Assembly: GCA_903930515.1 (NCBI GenBank)
Contig: CAIYYW010000025.1
Span: forward strand, 1-13,983
Source: an uncultured delta proteobacterium
Lineage (GTDB): Bacteria; RBG-13-61-14; DRUE01
Reading direction: 5' to 3'
DNA length: 13,983 nucleotides
Both the position numbers and the translations under genes were made by a program. Positions 1,770 through 13,983 of the stretch are shown here, one piece after another. Numbering within the stretch: position 1 is the stretch's first letter; each line of letters opens with the position of its first letter. The notes beneath the pieces were generated by a model, which searched no databases, was not told where the DNA came from, and saw nothing but the letters and a program-made list of their open reading frames with translations.

Positions 1770-2906
1770 TCAACCCCTTTTTATAGGATAATCATTCCCG
1801 GGGTTCCGATCCATTCTTTCATCCCCGGAGTTCCCGATGGTCCCTCCCCCGAGCACCAGATCGTCTTGATAAAAGACCACGGCCTGTCCCGGGGTGACGG
1901 CCATCTGGGGCTGATCGAAGGTTACCCGGACCAGAGCTCCCTCCGGAACAACCTCCGCCTCCGCTTCCCGATGCTGCTGCCGGATCCGGCCGCGGGCCTT
2001 GAAATTTTCCGTCGGCCTCTCCATCGCGATCCAGTTGAGGTTTACCGCCCTCAGTTCGCGCTGGAAAAGTTTTTCCCTAGGCCCCGCGATCACGGCGTTT
2101 TTTTCCGGGTCAATCCGGATCACATAGAGCGGCTCCTTCGCGGTGATCCGCAATCCCTTCCTCTGGCCGATGGTGTAGAACATAATCCCCCGGTGCTCTC
2201 CGATCTGGTTCCCGTCCTGATCCAGGATCGGACCGGGATGACGCTCTTGCGGGAAAAGAATGGAATAGTCCGACCCGGCGATAAAGTCCTGGCTTTCCTT
2301 TTTAAAAGCCACCGGCAGACCCAACTTTTCCGCGATCTTTCTCACTTGCTCCTTGCGCAAGTCCCCGAGCGGGAACAAGGTCCGGCTTAACTGATCCTGG
2401 GAGAGATGGTAAAGGAAATAGGTCTGGTCCTTGCTTAAATCCAGAGCCTTTTTCAGCAAATATCTTTTCCGGCCGGGATCATATTCCACCCGGCTGTAAT
2501 GACCGGTGGCGAAGAAGTCAAACTCAATCCCGGCCTCGGATATTTTCCGGGGCAGCTCCCCGAATTTCATTTTATGGTTGCAGATCACGCAGGGATTGGG
2601 GGTCCTTCCGCAAAGGTATTCCCGGCAAAAAGGATCCAGCACCTGCTCATTGTAGGCCCGGGACAGGTCCAGGGCGAAAAATTTTATCCCCAAAAATTCG
2701 GAAACCTTCTGCGCGTCCGAAAGGTCTTCCAATTCCCCGGGGCCGTAGCAGGAATGGCCCGCCCCCTCCTCCGGCAATTTCCTCCCGTCCCAGATTTTCA
2801 TCATCGCCCCGATCACTTCATAACCCTGTTCCAGGAGCAAGGCCGCGGCCACCGACGAGTCCACCCCGCCGCTCATTCCGACCACTACTCTTCGCTTCCG
2901 AACCAT
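1770..2906 (-). CDS. mnmA: tRNA-specific 2-thiouridylase MnmA, CxxC variant lacking the second catalytic Cys
   Basis: MnmA activates U34 of Lys, Glu and Gln tRNAs with ATP and inserts sulfur to give 2-thiouridine. The N-terminal PP-loop is clear (SGGVDSS, residues 12-18), as are CYGPGELED (53-61), GRTPNPCVICN (100-110), FATGHYSR (132-139), SKDQTYFLY (158-166) and the C-terminal barrel (TIGQRKGL). In E. coli the pair is Asp99/Cys102 with a second Cys199 in a GICFIG context. Here the first site is Cys106-x-x-Cys109, and the second site reads KKESQDFIAG: the Ile-Cys dipeptide is absent. Start: an upstream in-frame ATG at 2945 would add 13 residues, but the PP-loop normally sits near residue 10, so I chose 2906 (378 aa); AGGAG is only 2 nt away, so the start is not settled. 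The gene lies 162 bp after thi4 and 3 bp before the permease. Confidence 0.93.
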   Translation of the reverse strand: MVRKRRVVVGMSGGVDSSVAAALLLEQGYEVIGAMMKIWDGRKLPEEGAGHSCYGPGELEDLSDAQKVSEFLGIKFFALDLSRAYNEQVLDPFCREYLCGRTPNPCVICNHKMKFGELPRKISEAGIEFDFFATGHYSRVEYDPGRKRYLLKKALDLSKDQTYFLYHLSQDQLSRTLFPLGDLRKEQVRKIAEKLGLPVAFKKESQDFIAGSDYSILFPQERHPGPILDQDGNQIGEHRGIMFYTIGQRKGLRITAKEPLYVIRIDPEKNAVIAGPREKLFQRELRAVNLNWIAMERPTENFKARGRIRQQHREAEAEVVPEGALVRVTFDQPQMAVTPGQAVVFYQDDLVLGGGTIGNSGDERMDRNPGNDYPIKRG

Positions 2907-3068
2907 CACTCCTATTCTAATATATTCCGCGCCTATTGCACGCATTTGGAATTCGGAATTTCCACCACAAAGACCGGGACAAGAAAATAATTTTTGGCTC
3001 TTGGTTCAGCGCCAGCGACTTGACCCTGGCGGTGTATCCAGAGTAATTTTCCATTAACGGTGAACACG

Positions 3069-3863
3069 CTAACTTCCTCCGAGCTTGTCCTTGAGATCTT
3101 TGGCGGCCTTGCGGCCGGAGAGCAGCATGCCGCCGAAGATCGGCCCCATCCGGTGCGAACCCATCACCGCGTTCGCGGCCATACCGACCACGAACAGGCC
3201 GGGAGCGATCTCGACGGTGTTGTCCATGATCACGGTCTCGCCCAGCTCCGCGTTCATCGAGCGTTCGCCCTCGATTTTGCCGGACGGCGTGGCCAGTTTC
3301 AGCCCGCACTTGGTGATGACTTTGTTGATCACCATCATCTCGTGGCCGGTGGCGTCAATCACATATTTCGCCCCCACCGAGACCGGGTCAACATGGTATT
3401 TGCCCACTTCGATCGGCCGCCAGTTGATTACCACGCCGCAGACCCGGCAGTCCGAACTCAACATCACATCCTGAAAGGCGATCAGGTTGTAAATAGAAAC
3501 GCCGGCTTTAAGCGCTTTCAGAATCAAGGTGGACATGGTCTCGAGCGAGTTCGCGGTGTAATAACCGGGCGCGTATAACTCGGTCCCGATCTCCAGTTCG
3601 TCCAAGATCGGCTTGGCCGCGTCCTGGATGACAATGTAATTGTAGCCAAATCCGCCACCCCACATGCCGCCGCCCGGAGCGAGGTTTCTTTCGAACACCA
3701 CGGTCTTGACGCCGCTACGGCCCAGGTCATACGCGGCCATCAGCCCGGCCGGACCGGCGCCCACGATGGCGACCTCAACCTCGGTGTCGGACAGGAATTT
3801 CTTGTGCCAGGTCTCTACAATCGCCCGGGTAACCATCACATCATTGATCTTCACACCGCTCAT
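3069..3863 (-). CDS. thi4: Thi4-family thiazole synthase, sulfide-dependent (His) type
   Basis: Thi4 builds the ADP-thiazole precursor of thiamine from NAD, glycine and sulfur. The FAD/NAD-binding motif VGAGPAG (34-40), GGGMWGGG (64-71), VIDATGHE (168-175) and the C-terminal GSHRMGPIFGG (235-245) are all present, and the 264-residue length fits archaeal and anaerobe forms. At the position of the yeast suicide Cys205 this protein has His157 (KYHVDP), as in the Methanococcus enzyme, which takes free sulfide with iron and turns over repeatedly. So a catalytic, sulfide-using enzyme is expected, in the cytosol of an anaerobe. Start: an in-frame ATG at 3893 would overlap cysK, whereas the ATG at 3863 has GAGGAGG 5 nt upstream, in the 16-bp gap after cysK. 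No TPP riboswitch fits in that gap, so control probably comes from the operon promoter. Confidence 0.95.
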   Translation of the reverse strand: MSGVKINDVMVTRAIVETWHKKFLSDTEVEVAIVGAGPAGLMAAYDLGRSGVKTVVFERNLAPGGGMWGGGFGYNYIVIQDAAKPILDELEIGTELYAPGYYTANSLETMSTLILKALKAGVSIYNLIAFQDVMLSSDCRVCGVVINWRPIEVGKYHVDPVSVGAKYVIDATGHEMMVINKVITKCGLKLATPSGKIEGERSMNAELGETVIMDNTVEIAPGLFVVGMAANAVMGSHRMGPIFGGMLLSGRKAAKDLKDKLGGS

Positions 3864-3879
3864 CAGATCCTCCTCGAAA

Positions 3880-4827
3880 TTATTGATCTCCAAACAGCCA
3901 GGTGGACAGGTAACGCTCCCCGGTGTCCGGAAGAATGACGATGATCATCTTGCCCTTATTCTCCGGCCGGCTCGCCACCTGGATTCCGGCCCAAGTTGCG
4001 GCGCCCGAAGAAATCCCGGCCAGGATTCCCTCTTCCCTCGCCAATCTCCGGGCGGTTTCTCCCGCATCCTCGTTCCGGACCTGGACGATCTCGTCAATGA
4101 TCCTGGAGTTCAAAACCTGCGGAACAAACCCGGCGCCGATCCCCTGTATTTTGTGCGGACCCGGCTTGCCCCCGGAAAGCACCGGAGAATCCACCGGCTC
4201 CACCGCCACCACCTTGAAGCTCGGCTTCAACTTCTTGATCGCTTCCCCGACCCCGGTGATGGTTCCGCCCGTGCCCACCCCGCTCACCAGGATATCCGCC
4301 TTCCCATCGGTGTCCTCCCAGATCTCCAGGGCCGTGGTCTTGCGGTGAACCTCCGGGTTGGCCGGGTTCTGGAATTGCTGGGGGATGAAATAATCCTTGT
4401 GCAAGGAAGCAAGCTCCTCCGCCTGCTTGATCGCCCCCTTCATACCCTCCGCGCCCGGGGTCAAAATCAACTCCGCCCCGAAAACCTTCAGCAGTTTCCT
4501 CCGTTCAACGCTCATCGTATCCGGCATAGTCAAGATCAGCGGGTATCCCTTGACCGCGGCCACAAACGCCAGCGCGATCCCGGTATTACCGGAGGTCGGC
4601 TCAACCAGGGTCATCCCCGATCTGAGTTTGCCGTCCTTCTCAGCCGCCTCAATCATCGCCAGCCCGATCCGGTCCTTGATACTGGAAGCCGGGTTGAACA
4701 TCTCCAGCTTGGCGACCAATTCCCCGGCCAGGCCCTTGCCTATTTTTTTCAACCGAGTCAGAGGCGTGTTGCCGATCAATCCGGTGATATCTTCCGCGAT
4801 CCCGGGGCTCAATTTTCTTTCTGACAT
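3880..4827 (-). CDS. cysK: Cysteine synthase A (O-acetylserine sulfhydrylase)
   Basis: CysK makes cysteine from O-acetylserine and sulfide using pyridoxal phosphate. The 315-residue protein has normal length and all landmarks: IGNTPLTRL (18-26), NPASSIKDR with the PLP lysine at Lys51, the substrate loop TSGNTG (78-83), the phosphate-binding GTGGTITG (186-193), [11 protein letters not shown] (226-236) and GISSGAA (271-277). Start: ATG occurs at 4833 and at 4827; AAAGGAGG lies 6 nt before the second, so 4827 is chosen. The gene follows the Rrf2 regulator by 45 bp and precedes thi4 by 16 bp. An Rrf2 protein beside cysK recalls Bacillus/Staphylococcus CymR, which binds CysK to sense cysteine supply; whether that happens here is inference. 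No serine acetyltransferase gene is seen in the window. Confidence 0.96.
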
Positions 4828-4872
4828 TGTCATCCTCCTTTTCTTGGTTCAAATATTATGGCCGCTGCCGGT

Positions 4873-5316
4873 TCATAAATAATACATCGTGGCGCCGTGT
4901 TCCAATTTGTTCCCCTGACGGTCCGCCAGCTCCTGCAGCGTGGTCTTGCGAAGCAGGCCGATCACCGCCTCGTTCAGCTCGCTCCAGAATTCAAACGCCA
5001 CGCAATTATCGCTCCGCCGGCAACAGGTCGGATCATTGACGCAATCAACAAAAGTGGGCGGGCCTTCCAGAGCCACCGCGATCTCCTCAACCGTGATCTG
5101 ATCCATCGGCTTCGCCAGCAGATAGCCCCCCTTGGCCCCTCTCAAACTCCGCGCCAAGCCCGAACTCTTCAATCCCACCAGCAGATTATCCAGATACTTC
5201 TTTGAAATCTCCTGCCGTTTGGCGATGTTCTTAACCAGCACCGGCCCCTCATCCTGATGAAGGCTGATGTCTATCATCGCCCGCAACCCATATCTCAGCT
5301 TCGTGGATATCTTCAT
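4873..5316 (-). CDS. Rrf2-family transcriptional regulator with IscR-like cysteines
   Basis: The 147-residue protein starts MKISTKLRYGLRAM and has the Rrf2 winged helix (about 1-75), including the recognition region EISKKYLDNLL and the wing RGAKGGYLL. The C-terminal part carries Cys92, Cys98, Cys99 and Cys105 (DCVNDPTCC then DNC), nearly the spacing of the [2Fe-2S] ligands Cys92/98/104 of E. coli IscR. It is therefore likely an Fe-S or redox-sensing repressor, though CymR- or CysR-like cysteine sensing is also possible from the genes it leads. AAAGGAGG sits 6 nt before the ATG. It is the first gene of the operon, behind a strong promoter with a dyad over the likely transcription start, so self-repression together with cysK, thi4, mnmA and the permease is expected. 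Confidence 0.92.
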   Translation of the reverse strand: MKISTKLRYGLRAMIDISLHQDEGPVLVKNIAKRQEISKKYLDNLLVGLKSSGLARSLRGAKGGYLLAKPMDQITVEEIAVALEGPPTFVDCVNDPTCCRRSDNCVAFEFWSELNEAVIGLLRKTTLQELADRQGNKLEHGATMYYL

Positions 5317-5412
5317 CTATTCCTCCTTTTGTACATATCCTTTATTCACTTCCTTAACCACTTGATATTATTTGTTTTATAGAGCGCCTTCCTTCTATAC
5401 CATCCAAAACTA

Positions 5413-5428
5413 GCCTAATTCTATAGAC
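5413..5428 (-). promoter_or_regulatory. Candidate Rrf2 operator (imperfect dyad)
   Basis: On the minus strand GTCTA-TAGAAT-TAGGC is an inverted repeat with one mismatch in five. It resembles the GACTA...TAGTC core of IscR-type sites but with a 6-bp centre. It touches the 3' edge of the -10 box and covers the predicted transcription start, a classic repressor position. No binding evidence is available. Confidence 0.35.
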
Positions 5429-5456
5429 ATAGTATCTCATATTTCAACTTTGTCAA
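5429..5456 (-). promoter_or_regulatory. Promoter of the rrf2-cysK-thi4-mnmA-permease operon
   Basis: On the minus strand a perfect TTGACA (5451-5456) is followed after 16 bp by TACTAT (5429-5434). Transcription would start near 5422, giving a leader of roughly 105 nt before the Rrf2 start codon. Confidence 0.7.
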
Positions 5457-7349: not shown

Positions 7350-7436
7350 TTGAGCAAGTTTGCGATCCAGGTTACGCGGATGCGGTTATTGGATCTTCAT
7401 AATAGTAAAGCTTTGCTGGAGGCCAAGGATGAATAA
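7350..7436 (+). other. 28-codon reading frame in the MNT leader, gene remnant or leader peptide
   Basis: A TTG codon at 7350, preceded by GGGAGTGAT, opens a frame that ends at 7434-7436, overlapping the nucleotidyltransferase start by 8 bp. It reads SKFAIQVTRMRLLDLHNS after the start, then KALLEAKDE. It looks more protein-like than random spacer, and TRMxLLxL faintly recalls the beginning of V-type ATPase subunit D, but the match is too short to claim. Just before it, ATG at 7319 with a GAGGAAG SD opens a 9-codon frame (MPENKKDWE) ending at 7348. This could be a scar of an older gene, or a translated leader coupling ribosomes into the MNT gene. Confidence 0.25.
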
Positions 7437-7764
7437 TAGAGAAGAAAAATCCATTTCCGAGATCAAAGCCGGGATTTTGAAAATCCTGGAGGAGATGGGG
7501 GTTAAGGCGGAAAAGATCATCCTTTTCGGCTCCCGGGCCAGAGGGGATTTCAGCGGTCAGAGCGATTGGGATTTCTTGATTATGGTTAGAGAGCGGCTGG
7601 CGCGGGAGGAAAAGAGAAGGATCGCGCATCTGGTTCGGAAAAGATTAGCCGAGTTGGAATTGGATTGCGATGTGATAGTGAGGTCCGAGGCAGAGGTTGA
7701 GGGGAGGAAGAATGTGATCGGAAGCGTAATTAAAAGCGCGCTGGAAGAGGGGCTGACCCTATGA
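7429..7764 (+). CDS. MNT-type nucleotidyltransferase (MntA-like antitoxin candidate)
   Basis: This 111-residue cytosolic protein has the minimal nucleotidyltransferase signature: GSRARGD (34-40), the acidic pair Asp46/Asp48 in SDWDFL, and a third acidic residue in LDCDVIV (Asp81). In MntA/HepT pairs such a protein adds AMP to a tyrosine of the HEPN partner and silences it; the role here is inferred from the family and the adjacent gene. Start: ATG at 7429 has GGAGG 6 nt upstream; an in-frame start at 7360 has no SD and adds a non-homologous stretch. Its TGA overlaps the start of the HEPN gene by ATGA, so the two are translationally coupled, with a strong promoter 135 bp upstream. Confidence 0.88.
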   Translation: MNNREEKSISEIKAGILKILEEMGVKAEKIILFGSRARGDFSGQSDWDFLIMVRERLAREEKRRIAHLVRKRLAELELDCDVIVRSEAEVEGRKNVIGSVIKSALEEGLTL

Positions 7765-8189
7765 CTGACCCGGAAGTGACAAAATGGCTGATTAAGGCGA
7801 TGAATGACTACCGGACCGCGGAAAAGTTGATCCGGGATCCAGCCGAGGAAATCATTACCGACACTCTATGTTTTCACGGCGAGCAGTTTGTGGAAAAGGT
7901 TTTAAAGGCGTATCTCCTTTCTCAAAAGGTGGATTTCAAGCGAACCCATAATTTGGAATACCTGGTGAAACTGAGCGCGGAGCGGGATCCGGAATTTGAA
8001 TGGCTGGACGAGGCGGCGGAAAAGCTCACGGAATATGCGGTGGAGATCAGGTATCCGGATGATTTTTACCTGCCCAGTTTGGAGGAAGCCCTAGAGGTGT
8101 TTGAAATAATCAAGCGGGTCAAGGAGTTTGTTTTTAAAAAATTGGGGATCCAGGACTCGGATTTAAAAAATCCGGTAAGTAAGGGGTAA
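7761..8189 (+). CDS. HEPN-domain protein paired with the MNT gene
   Basis: A 142-residue helical protein. Features of the PF05168-type HEPN family are FHGEQFVEKVLKAYLL (38-53), RTHNLEYLV (61-69) and EYAVEIRYPDDFY (91-103). The RNase motif of active HEPN toxins, R-x4-6-H, is not met: Arg97 is followed by YPDD and then Phe102, with no His. The RYPD form is common in this branch, whose activity is poorly known. It may be a toxin using other residues, or a non-nuclease partner. Tyr98 and Tyr103 are possible AMP acceptors by analogy with HepT. It overlaps the MNT gene by 4 bp. The last 15 or so residues (QDSDLKNPVSKG) look low in conservation. Confidence 0.85.
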   Translation: MTDPEVTKWLIKAMNDYRTAEKLIRDPAEEIITDTLCFHGEQFVEKVLKAYLLSQKVDFKRTHNLEYLVKLSAERDPEFEWLDEAAEKLTEYAVEIRYPDDFYLPSLEEALEVFEIIKRVKEFVFKKLGIQDSDLKNPVSKG

Positions 8190-11203: not shown

Positions 11204-11232
11204 TGGGGTCAGGGCTTTAGTTTAAAGTTAAC
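11204..11232 (+). repeat. Left 29-bp inverted repeat of the transposase element
   Basis: Begins TGGGGTCAGGGC and ends AAAGTTAAC; an exact reverse complement lies at 12204-12232. It holds a small hairpin CTTTA-GTT-TAAAG (11215-11227). The transposase stop codon (11217-11219) lies inside this repeat. Confidence 0.95.
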
Positions 11233-12167
11233 AACCGGATCCGCCTGGTTAGGCCCCGATCTTTCCGCATCCGCTTTCTAACCTCATTGATCCCGAGCGA
11301 AACTGCCGTTAAGCTTACGCCCATCACCCGGGCGGTTTCGGTCACACTTAAGCCGCAATTCTCCACCAAATGATAATATGCGACCAGGCGGGGCGGGAAA
11401 TTTCGGCGCCGGTGTTTCAAATCCTCAATTTTCACCTTGAAAATTTTCGCGATGCGGGCAATTTCTTCCTGGGGACTGATTTTCTTCCGGCTTGCTTTTA
11501 AAAAGGCGGGAACCGCTTTGGTCCTTCCCGCCGGGCGATATTTTTTAGTCAATGCTTCCAGGGTTTGGCGTGAGCCGATAATGATTCCGTTTTTCAGCTG
11601 TTCAATAAAGTCAGGCTTTTCACCAACGAATCCCAGACATTCCTGAGCGTAATGCCAATGGCAGGATGATCTGCTTCCGTAATGAGCGAGGATTTCCTCC
11701 CGCTGGAGCCAATCAAAGCGAGATTGTGCGCGAATATAATCCAGATAACTTGACCAGCGATAATCCGCCAGCCGCTCCACCAATCCCGCCCGAACCGGAT
11801 TTAAATGAAGATACATACTCAAATGCAGCCAATGATTATCTTCGGTAACCAATACGGATTTATATCGGTCTTGAAAAAGATGCCCGGAGCGGCGATTCTT
11901 CCAGTTAAAATAGCCGGCATAGGTGCCAACCAGCCAATGCATCGCCTGGCTCAGATTGCCCTCGGGCGTGCGCAGAAAAAGGTGAAAATGATTTCCCATC
12001 AGGCAAAACGCAAAAATCTCCAGACCAAAACGATGGCTCACCCGTTTGAGCAAATCCAGGAAAAAAGTTCGGTCCGCATCATCCAGAAAAATATCCTGCC
12101 GGTTGTTGCCTCGAACCGTGATATGATAAATCGCATCTTCAAACTGGATCCGCCAGGGTCGCGCCAT
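11217..12167 (-). CDS. REP-associated tyrosine transposase (Y1, HUH family) with DnaA-like C-terminal domain
   Basis: A 316-residue protein starting MARPWRIQFEDAIYHITVRG, the hallmark of RAYT/Y1_Tnp proteins. The HUH-type metal site is GNHFHLFL (His60, His62); the likely catalytic tyrosine is Tyr119 in MYLHLNPVRAGLV (118-130). From about residue 230, QEEIARIAKIFKVKIEDL followed by SVTETARVMGVSLTAVSLGINEVRKR matches the helix-turn-helix of DnaA domain IV, a common C-terminal addition in larger RAYTs that probably reads target DNA. Such enzymes nick and join single-stranded DNA at hairpin repeats. The stop lies inside the left inverted repeat, and the ATG is 36 bp inside the right repeat with a consensus promoter between. 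There is no SD. All motifs are intact, so it may be active. Confidence 0.93.
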   Translation of the reverse strand: MARPWRIQFEDAIYHITVRGNNRQDIFLDDADRTFFLDLLKRVSHRFGLEIFAFCLMGNHFHLFLRTPEGNLSQAMHWLVGTYAGYFNWKNRRSGHLFQDRYKSVLVTEDNHWLHLSMYLHLNPVRAGLVERLADYRWSSYLDYIRAQSRFDWLQREEILAHYGSRSSCHWHYAQECLGFVGEKPDFIEQLKNGIIIGSRQTLEALTKKYRPAGRTKAVPAFLKASRKKISPQEEIARIAKIFKVKIEDLKHRRRNFPPRLVAYYHLVENCGLSVTETARVMGVSLTAVSLGINEVRKRMRKDRGLTRRIRLLTLN

Positions 12168-12232: not shown

Positions 12233-12283
12233 AAATCTTATCCTGGCTTGCATCCCAACCCGTTCGCACGCAAAATAAAACTG

Positions 12284-13983
12284 ATGAAGGAAGAAAATAA
12301 GTTTGACCTGATCGTAGTCGGGGCCGGTCACGCGGGGATTGAGGCGGCTCTGGCCGGGGCGAGGATGGGGTTTAAGGTTCTGGTGCTGACCATCGTCCCG
12401 GAGATGATCGGGGCGATGAGTTGCAACCCCGCGATCGGGGGATTGGCCAAGGGTCAACTGGTTAAGGAGATTGACGCCTTGGGCGGAGAGATGGCCAAGG
12501 CGATTGACGCGACCGGGATCCAGTTCCGGATTTTGAATATGAGCAAAGGCCCCGCGGTCAGGAGCAGCCGGGCACAGGCCGATATGTTCCAATACCGGGT
12601 CTATATGCGGAAAGTTCTGGAGCAAGAGCCGAATATTCAAATCCGGGAGGGAGAGGCGGAAGCGGTTCTGGTATCGGGCGGAAAGGTTCGCGGGATTCGG
12701 CTCAAGGGCGGCGCCGAATTTTTTGCGCTGATGGTGATCCTCACCACCGGCACTTTTTTGCGCGGATTGATCCATATCGGTCTTTCCAGTTTCCCGGCCG
12801 GAAGATTGGGGGAGCCCCCTAGTGAAAAACTTTCCGACTCGCTCAAGGGTTTGGGGTTGGAGTTGGGCCGGCTCAAGACCGGGACCACTCCGAGGCTGGA
12901 CCGGAAGAGCATCAATTATGAAATCCTCCAGGCCCAGTCCGGGGACAACCCTCCCCGGCCGTTCAGCTTTGACACGGAAAAGATTGAACGCGCGCAAGTG
13001 GTCTGCCACATCACCTATACCAATGAGACCACGCACGCCCTGATCAGGACCGGGCTGGACCGGTCCCCGCTTTTCACCGGGGTGATCAAGGGGATCGGCC
13101 CGCGCTACTGCCCGAGCATAGAGGACAAGGTGGTGAAATTTCCCGACCGGACCCGGCACCATATTTTTTTGGAGCCGGAGGGTCTGGACACGGACGAGGT
13201 TTACCCGAACGGGATTTCCACCAGCCTGCCGATGGATCTTCAGGAAAAAATGGTCCATTCCATTGCCGGACTGGAATCGGCGAAGATTCTCAAACCCGGC
13301 TACGCCATTGAATACGATTTCGTCAAGCCCACCCAGCTTAAAGCCTCGCTTGAGACCAAGGCCATTGAAGGGCTGTTCACCGCCGGCCAGATCAACGGCA
13401 GCTCCGGATATGAGGAAGCCGCGGCGCAGGGGTTGATCGCCGGGATCAACGCAGGTCAAAAGTTGCGGGGAGAGAGTCCCCTGATCCTGGATCGGTCTCA
13501 GGCCTATATCGGGGTGCTGATTGACGACCTGGTGACCAAAGGCACGGAAGAGCCTTACCGGATGTTCACCAGCCGCGCGGAATACCGGCTGATCTTGCGC
13601 GAGGATAATGCGGACTTGCGGCTGAGGGAATCCGGACATCGGCTGGGCCTGGTCGGGGAAGAGTCCTATCAAAAATTCTTGCGAAAGAAAGGATTGTTGG
13701 AAAAGGAATTGGGAAGGCTGGAGCAGGCGATGATCTATCCGAGCGCGGAGATGGAGGAAAAATTTTCCCGGCTGGGCCTTGCCGCGATCAATCAGCCCTT
13801 GTCCTTGAAGCAGTTTCTCCGCAGGCCGGAATTGAGCTGGCGGATGCTCCGGGAGCTGGACGAAAATTTCGGCTTGCTTTTGGATTCGGTGGCGGAGGAA
13901 GTTGAGATCCAGGTCAAGTATCAGGGATACATTGAGCGGGAGCTTCAGGAGGTGGATCGGTTCCGGAGGCAGGAGCAGGAGAA
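12284..13983 (+). CDS. mnmG: tRNA U34 carboxymethylaminomethyl synthesis enzyme MnmG (GidA), 3' end cut by the window
   Basis: MnmG, with MnmE, uses FAD, methylene-tetrahydrofolate and glycine or ammonium to build the C5 group on the wobble uridine of several tRNAs; MnmA adds 2-thio to the same base. The frame is open for 566 codons; family members are about 620-630 residues, so roughly 60 are missing. Visible are the FAD site VVGAGHAGIEAA (11-22), SCNPAIGGLAKGQ, LKTGTTPRL, GQINGSSGYEEAAAQG and the C-terminal-domain signature RMFTSRAEYRLILREDNAD. The ATG at 12284 gives the usual short leader before the FAD motif; an in-frame TTG at 12248 is less likely. There is no SD; a weak TTGCAT-17 bp-CAAAAT (ending 12276) would place the mRNA start at the ATG. 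A long open frame on the opposite strand is a coding shadow. Confidence 0.95.
   Translation, partial: MKEENKFDLIVVGAGHAGIEAALAGARMGFKVLVLTIVPEMIGAMSCNPAIGGLAKGQLVKEIDALGGEMAKAIDATGIQFRILNMSKGPAVRSSRAQADMFQYRVYMRKVLEQEPNIQIREGEAEAVLVSGGKVRGIRLKGGAEFFALMVILTTGTFLRGLIHIGLSSFPAGRLGEPPSEKLSDSLKGLGLELGRLKTGTTPRLDRKSINYEILQAQSGDNPPRPFSFDTEKIERAQVVCHITYTNETTHALIRTGLDRSPLFTGVIKGIGPRYCPSIEDKVVKFPDRTRHHIFLEPEGLDTDEVYPNGISTSLPMDLQEKMVHSIAGLESAKILKPGYAIEYDFVKPTQLKASLETKAIEGLFTAGQINGSSGYEEAAAQGLIAGINAGQKLRGESPLILDRSQAYIGVLIDDLVTKGTEEPYRMFTSRAEYRLILREDNADLRLRESGHRLGLVGEESYQKFLRKKGLLEKELGRLEQAMIYPSAEMEEKFSRLGLAAINQPLSLKQFLRRPELSWRMLRELDENFGLLLDSVAEEVEIQVKYQGYIERELQEVDRFRRQEQE

Follow-up and report, generated by a model that had tools for sequence, protein, structure and literature searches.

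A candidate Rrf2-regulated sulfide-use operon with an MnmA lacking Cys199 in an uncultured delta proteobacterium

How can the tRNA 2-thiouridine(34) synthase MnmA thiolate its substrate if the cysteine that normally receives the persulfide is missing? This question is raised by a gene cluster of an uncultured delta proteobacterium (assembly GCA_903930515.1, contig CAIYYW010000025.1). The entire contig of 13,983 nucleotides (G000:C25) was analysed and is called the window in the following; the draft genome comprises 3.65 Mb and is 93.5% complete. Profile models confirmed five genes on the minus strand in the order rrf2, cysK, thi4, mnmA and permease (Table 1). All families in this cluster are already known, and a sequence-only reading of the window had interpreted them as a coordinated set which uses inorganic sulfide directly for cysteine, thiamine and tRNA thiolation.

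We lean, without great confidence, towards the explanation that the locus serves an anaerobic-type bacterium as a sulfide-use operon under Rrf2 control, in which MnmA works without the Cys199 persulfide step. O-acetylserine and sulfide would give cysteine through CysK, sulfide would also be the sulfur source of the thiamin thiazole made by the His-type Thi4, and MnmA would make 2-thiouridine-34 without a persulfide on Cys199. In MnmA, C106 and C109, probably together with C53, may ligate a [4Fe-4S] cluster that is labile to oxygen; its free iron would bind sulfide and hand it to the adenylated U34, a mechanism of the kind proposed for TtuA/NcsA (for NcsA, PMC10067955) and Thermotoga LarE (PMC9283937). 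Once the supply of sulfide/cysteine or of Fe-S suffices, Rrf2 might repress the operon by way of an operator that overlies the promoter, and the permease with its HMA domain may handle a thiophilic metal. That MnmAs of this kind form a widespread class which makes 2-thiouridine from sulfide by a three-cysteine [4Fe-4S] and without a persulfide cysteine, and that Rrf2 ties tRNA decoding to sulfide supply, is a bolder proposal, which we put forward tentatively and consider short of probable.

MnmA and its relatives without Cys199

The canonical MnmA of E. coli works through a Cys102/Cys199 persulfide and is fed by the IscS-TusA-TusBCD-TusE relay. The window MnmA, which is the sole MnmA of its genome, reads 'ESQDFIAG' where the E. 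coli enzyme has 'DSTGICFIG', so that the equivalent of Cys199 and one more residue are gone, and the position of E. coli Asp99 is taken by a cysteine that gives a CxxC motif. The loss of the persulfide-receiving cysteine, which had been noticed earlier, was confirmed; the label 'Cys-poor' that went with it is imprecise, because the CxxC pair (C106, C109) and C53 are retained. The best Foldseek matches of the protein are 2hma and 2der, and its AlphaFold model has a predicted local distance difference test (pLDDT) score of 63-70 over residues 41-60.

An MnmA profile search combined with motif reading in 395 genomes of a Desulfobacterota-type phylum and 35 genomes of another phylum revealed a class of Cys199-less MnmAs, characterised by CY or CF replacing CC, by CxxC and by a two-residue deletion which removes Cys199. 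The 40 sampled members come from at least three groups; in 37 of them CC has become CY or CF, and the final cysteine is missing throughout. In trees computed without the motif columns they form one clade, first with all 22 members (Shimodaira-Hasegawa-like approximate likelihood ratio test, SH-aLRT, 99) and later with all 40 (97). All 40 sequences carry C53, C106 and C109, with every other cysteine column at 70% or below, and the PP-loop and CxxC motifs are retained class-wide.

MnmA is the most interesting part of the operon because the sulfur route of the bacterial enzyme is disputed between a Cys199 persulfide and [4Fe-4S] plus sulfide; thiolation with sulfide by [4Fe-4S]-reconstituted MnmA has been reported and is itself contested (PMC11784392). 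A clade without Cys199 and with three invariant cysteines represents a natural experiment which makes this dispute directly testable, and several of its mnmA genes neighbour sulfide-using enzymes. If sulfide works for the class, the Cys199 persulfide step would not hold for MnmAs in general, and in sulfidic habitats tRNA might be thiolated without passing through cysteine at all. In a literature search reaching few subscription papers, we found no published description of the class or of its link to sulfide operons, the review PMC11784392 included.

The main rival explanation, which claims a considerable minority of our belief, holds that a shared demand for reduced sulfur groups these genes and that NifS still feeds MnmA, with the persulfide on C106 or C109. 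The mnmA gene of B. subtilis has the desulfurase gene next to it, a place which cysK and thi4 occupy in the window, and the window contig carries no desulfurase gene. The B. subtilis desulfurase YrvO gives sulfur straight to MnmA without Tus (PMC11784392), and a NifS of this genome could do the same. The statement that neither a desulfurase nor a sulfur carrier is encoded holds for the contig, and TusA (PF01206) had no match in the 93.5% complete genome, with a positive E. coli control and TusB-E not searched; it fails for the genome, which encodes both NifS and NifU. In detail, NifS is located on contig C281 with a complete active site (the cysteine of SACASGS) beside NifU-type genes and cysE, and a second NifU is seen by its start only, at the end of contig C87. 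A check proposed earlier was whether genomes with such a neighbourhood lack IscS and TusA-E. TusA was not found here, but the idea that genomes of the class are desulfurase-free was rejected, as a NifS-like protein was matched in 38 of the 40. Since NifS and NifU are present in the window genome and NifS in nearly all genomes of the class, persulfide or desulfurase-derived sulfur is a real possibility.

These findings weigh against a sulfide-fed operon. The gene neighbourhoods of the first sample speak for it and against the rival. With a neighbour taken as a gene within 2.5 kb and on the same strand as mnmA, nifS was found in the first sample near none of the 22 Cys199-less mnmA genes versus 25 Cys199-bearing ones, and cysK near Cys199-less mnmA in 7 genomes. 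These contrasts are not independent observations, because Cys199 was lost once on the tree; the Fisher-test significance of the nifS contrast (0/21 versus 25/43, the Cys199-less L172 being counted among the Cys199-bearing owing to an unrelated cysteine) was dropped, as one loss gives one independent pair. Proximity of cysK was rejected as a separator of the two MnmA types (7/21 versus 11/43). The statement that Cys199-less mnmA never lies near nifS was dropped as well, since in the second phylum a few of these genes are placed near nifS/iscU clusters (L276, L279, L281). The loss of Cys199 is also not required by the context of an rrf2-cysK-hcyBio-mnmA operon, because the MnmAs there retain it. 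Finally, and likewise against the proposed operon, thi4 and mnmA of the window lie 162 bp apart, and the exact order rrf2-cysK-thi4-mnmA was seen on the window contig only.

A Syntrophorhabdus genome (L135, L136) holds two cysK-mnmA loci, and in both copies a YedF-like TusA-domain protein is encoded downstream of the Cys199-less mnmA (L135 6334-6921, L136 199-786).

The sulfide-using neighbours and their regulator

CysK uses sulfide. In Thi4, His157 (within 'KYHVDP') stands at the position of the sacrificial cysteine, where the Arabidopsis counterpart has Cys in 'SCMDP'; this had been read correctly before, as the alignment with 7rk0, 4y4m and 1rp0 demonstrates. Non-Cys THI4s of the His type use sulfide, and His was found in 171 of 199 non-Cys THI4s (PMC8454699). 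The assignment of the window protein to the sulfide-using His form of the MJ0601 type is supported at the sequence level. ThiG was not found in the window genome, which leaves Thi4 as the sole thiazole synthase found there; a genome of the same order (G002) shows the reverse, with ThiG, without Thi4 and with a canonical CC-CxxC-C MnmA. For CysK and Thi4 the proposed direct use of inorganic sulfide has a sound basis, and it may extend to MnmA. This uncultured sediment-type bacterium would hold enzymes for cysteine, vitamin B1 and tRNA sulfur in one regulated cluster.

In L068 (6026-7640) a Cys-type, suicide-like Thi4 (ITCVDP) directly follows a His-type Thi4, and in L187 (G354:C250:615-1298) a Cys-type Thi4 lies inside an hcyBio-nilFd-mnmA-larE operon; judged by sequence, both Thi4 sulfur modes occur in anaerobic-type genomes.

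The permease passes the cut-off for SO_0444 Cu/Zn efflux transporters narrowly (309.5 versus 300), the HMA domain being an extra, and it fits the reported link of non-Cys THI4s with non-iron metals (PMC8454699). In the window the permease with HMA closes the operon; in L048, too, a permease (ArsP_1) comes after cysK-hcyBio.

The intergenic gaps are 39 bp between rrf2 and cysK, 16 bp between cysK and thi4, 162 bp between thi4 and mnmA and 3 bp between mnmA and permease. Good Shine-Dalgarno sequences precede rrf2, cysK and thi4; the ATG of thi4 at 3863 follows GAGGAGG, and a TTG at 3893 is an alternative start. A scan of the minus strand found no terminator-like sites among the five genes, and the best promoter-like site of this strand lies before rrf2. 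The promoter on its own is weak evidence, because three such sites were found in the region where 2.6 are expected by chance. Taken together, the gaps, the promoter and the terminator-free intergenic stretches make it likely that the genes from rrf2 to permease form one transcript. The earlier description of five genes behind one promoter was confirmed; its span of 1770-5456 ends at mnmA, although it speaks of five genes and the operon runs on into the permease.

The regulator had been read as a sensor with IscR-like cysteines. The alignment shows the pattern DC-X5-CC-X5-C, with three IscR-like cysteines, but no equivalent of IscR His107 (CVAFEFW stands there), and the score of 110 bits against the IscR model is far below the cut-off of 207.6; for both reasons its identification as IscR was rejected. 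In a tree it clusters with the Rrf2s of cysK/hcyBio operons with a modest support of 82, apart from nifS-linked IscRs.

Alternatively, Rrf2 and CysK could form a cysteine sensor of the CymR-CysK type, with O-acetylserine as the signal and CysK as co-repressor, and with a regulon to which thi4, mnmA and the permease simply belong. In B. subtilis CysK acts as the co-repressor of CymR, and cysK directly follows rrf2 both in the window and in L060, L048, L188, L190, L191, L193, L196 and L200. CymR is also the second-best model for the window Rrf2; however, the score of 122 bits is below the cut-off of 195, two aligned CymRs lack the cysteines which make up C-X5-CC-X5-C in the window protein, and the tree sets CymR apart with a support of 85. 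Such a sensor appears somewhat unlikely to us, and as it concerns the switch alone, it can be compatible with a sulfide-use operon.

A 17-bp motif, CTATAGAAAAAGTATAG, recurs upstream of seven rrf2 genes of rrf2-cysK/hcyBio operons in Desulfobacterota-type genomes, from which an operator matrix was built. The two top matches of this matrix in the whole window, 5410-5426 (minus) and 5421-5437 (plus), fall over the rrf2 promoter and form an imperfect dyad, CTATAGAATTAGGCTAG on the minus and CTATAGACATAGTATCT on the plus strand. The candidate operator is suggestive at most, because shuffled upstream sequence attains its score in 13 of 200 to 22 of 300 trials (about 7%). Nothing convincing was found with the matrix before rrf2, cysK or mnmA in L060, L048, L175, L134, L136, L138, L137 and L133, and L135 has one site, upstream of cysK. 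In L188, L190, L191, L193, L196 and L200, CTATAGAAAAAGTATAG is conserved between the promoter and rrf2.

Conservation of the neighbourhood and features of the window

The phylum of the window comprises three genomes in our set, for which reason conservation was tested outside it; a Thi4 scan with one genome per species gave 80 loci from 84,980 species. A genome of the same genus (G001) matches contig CAIUDS010000442.1 (uncultured delta proteobacterium, isolate AlinenSedimentsD2_bin-1424). The sister genome (L019) keeps thi4-mnmA-permease with identities of 95, 65 and 63%, and rrf2-cysK are not visible there because the contig stops inside thi4. L060, from another group, has the order rrf2-cysK-thi4-hcyBio-NIL/ferredoxin-nifS-nadA-iscU with larE a few genes later, and L048 has thiE-thi4-rrf2-cysK-hcyBio-ArsP permease. 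L068 contains two thi4 genes, rrf2, metY and cysK, and thi4 abuts mnmA in L070 and L049 (Omnitrophota).

In the Desulfobacterota-type phylum, rrf2-cysK-hcyBio-nilFd-mnmA-larE is repeated in L188, L190, L191, L193, L196 and L200 and found in part in L186 and L187, in the latter with thi4. This arrangement is strongly conserved and resembles a regulon for sulfide assimilation that has an Rrf2 type of its own; rrf2/iscR-nifS-iscU-mnmA is the commoner one in the same phylum. The gene larE also adjoins several members of the Cys199-less class.

A coordinated set is supported by this partial conservation in the sister genome, in L060 and in Desulfobacterota-type operons. The predicted recurrence of rrf2-cysK-thi4-mnmA was found in pieces, with the sister genome as described and with rrf2-cysK-thi4 and thi4-mnmA in other phyla, and not as the complete order. 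As to the view that the grouping is undescribed, our literature search, with its limited reach, found no published thi4/mnmA/cysK or rrf2 cluster, but Rrf2 with cysK and mnmA, sometimes with thi4, is a theme of other lineages.

A chance neighbourhood, with rrf2-cysK-thi4 and mnmA-permease as two unrelated adjacent transcripts, would agree with the gap ahead of mnmA and with a complete order known from one contig, but it is improbable in view of the three genes kept in the sister genome and of thi4-mnmA or cysK-mnmA adjacency seen again in other phyla. Least credible is an MnmA which is decaying or acts on another substrate: a residue essential in E. coli is lost (PMC11784392), but the protein is the only MnmA of its genome, PP-loop and CxxC are preserved throughout the class, and the contig also carries the gene for MnmG.

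Table 1. Positions of genes, residues and candidate control sites in the window
Feature	Position	Strand	Basis or remark
Sigma-70-like promoter TTGACA-16-TACTAT	5456-5429	minus	before rrf2; consensus match
Candidate Rrf2 operator, imperfect dyad	5410-5437	minus and plus	overlaps the -10 box and runs past it
rrf2	5316-4873	minus	Pfam Rrf2, 127 bits
cysK, O-acetylserine sulfhydrylase (cysteine synthase A)	4833-3880	minus	TIGR01139, 466 bits, cut-off 351
thi4, sulfide-type thiazole synthase	3863-3069	minus	TIGR00292 'sulfide-dependent', 272 bits, cut-off 148
Thi4 His157 codon	3393-3395	minus	position of the sacrificial Cys; alignment
mnmA, tRNA 2-thiouridine(34) synthase	2906-1770	minus	NF001138, 395 bits, cut-off 284
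MnmA Cys53 codon (SCYGPGE)	2748-2750	minus	first of the three invariant Cys of the class
MnmA CxxC (Cys106, Cys109) in PNPCVICN	2580-2591	minus	motif alignment
MnmA ESQD-(deletion)-F at the Cys199 site	2280-2300	minus	motif alignment
Permease, SO_0444-type, ArsP_1 with C-terminal HMA	1766-492	minus	NF033936, 309.5 bits, cut-off 300

The gene mnmG (GidA), which encodes the position-5 partner enzyme for U34, is located at 12248-13981 (plus) and truncated by the contig end. At 7360-8189 (plus) a nucleotidyltransferase-HEPN gene pair of the MNT-HEPN type with overlapping ends is likely a toxin-antitoxin system, and at 11217-12167 (minus) a REP-associated tyrosine transposase family protein is encoded, a C-terminal stretch of which matches the DnaA model (E 1.6e-5).

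Comparison with known systems

The window MnmA belongs to the same family as the canonical E. coli enzyme over its full length and has the same PP-loop. It differs by Cys for Asp99, by the deletion of Cys199 with a neighbouring residue and by the missing TusA; without an equivalent of Cys199 it falls outside the Cys199-persulfide type, as does the whole clade of 40. MnmAs have been sorted into D- and C-types in the review PMC11784392, where the combination of CY, CxxC and no final cysteine is not named. With the C-type (CC-CxxC-C, proposed [4Fe-4S], e.g. Thermus) the window protein has CxxC and the cysteine of the first motif in common; however, CY replaces CC and the final cysteine is absent, which sets it apart from CC-CxxC-C.

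Like the MJ0601-type and Thermovibrio THI4s, the window Thi4 has no cysteine at the sacrificial site (His in the MJ0601 type, Met in Thermovibrio), shares about 45% identity with them and occurs in a genome without ThiG. Its gene neighbours rrf2, cysK, mnmA and the HMA permease, whereas TRASH and Co/Ni genes are the neighbours reported for non-Cys THI4s (PMC8454699); the link to metals is retained.

The arrangements cymR-yrvO(iscS)-mnmA of B. subtilis and rrf2/iscR-nifS-iscU-mnmA have in common with the window an Rrf2 regulator ahead of a pyridoxal phosphate-dependent sulfur enzyme and mnmA, but the window has cysK and thi4 in place of the desulfurase (and IscU). In Desulfovibrio and methanogens, the genes for DUF39 (HcyBio) and NIL-ferredoxin serve the route from sulfide to homocysteine (PMC5764234). 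At the related loci they share the neighbourhood of cysK, rrf2, mnmA and larE; in contrast to the genomes with rrf2-cysK-hcyBio-nilFd-mnmA-larE, the window genome lacks HcyBio. Finally, with TtuA/NcsA and Thermotoga LarE, the sulfide-type thiolases with [4Fe-4S], the window MnmA has three invariant cysteines and the PP-loop thiolase fold in common, although it represents a different subfamily and its own cluster is putative.

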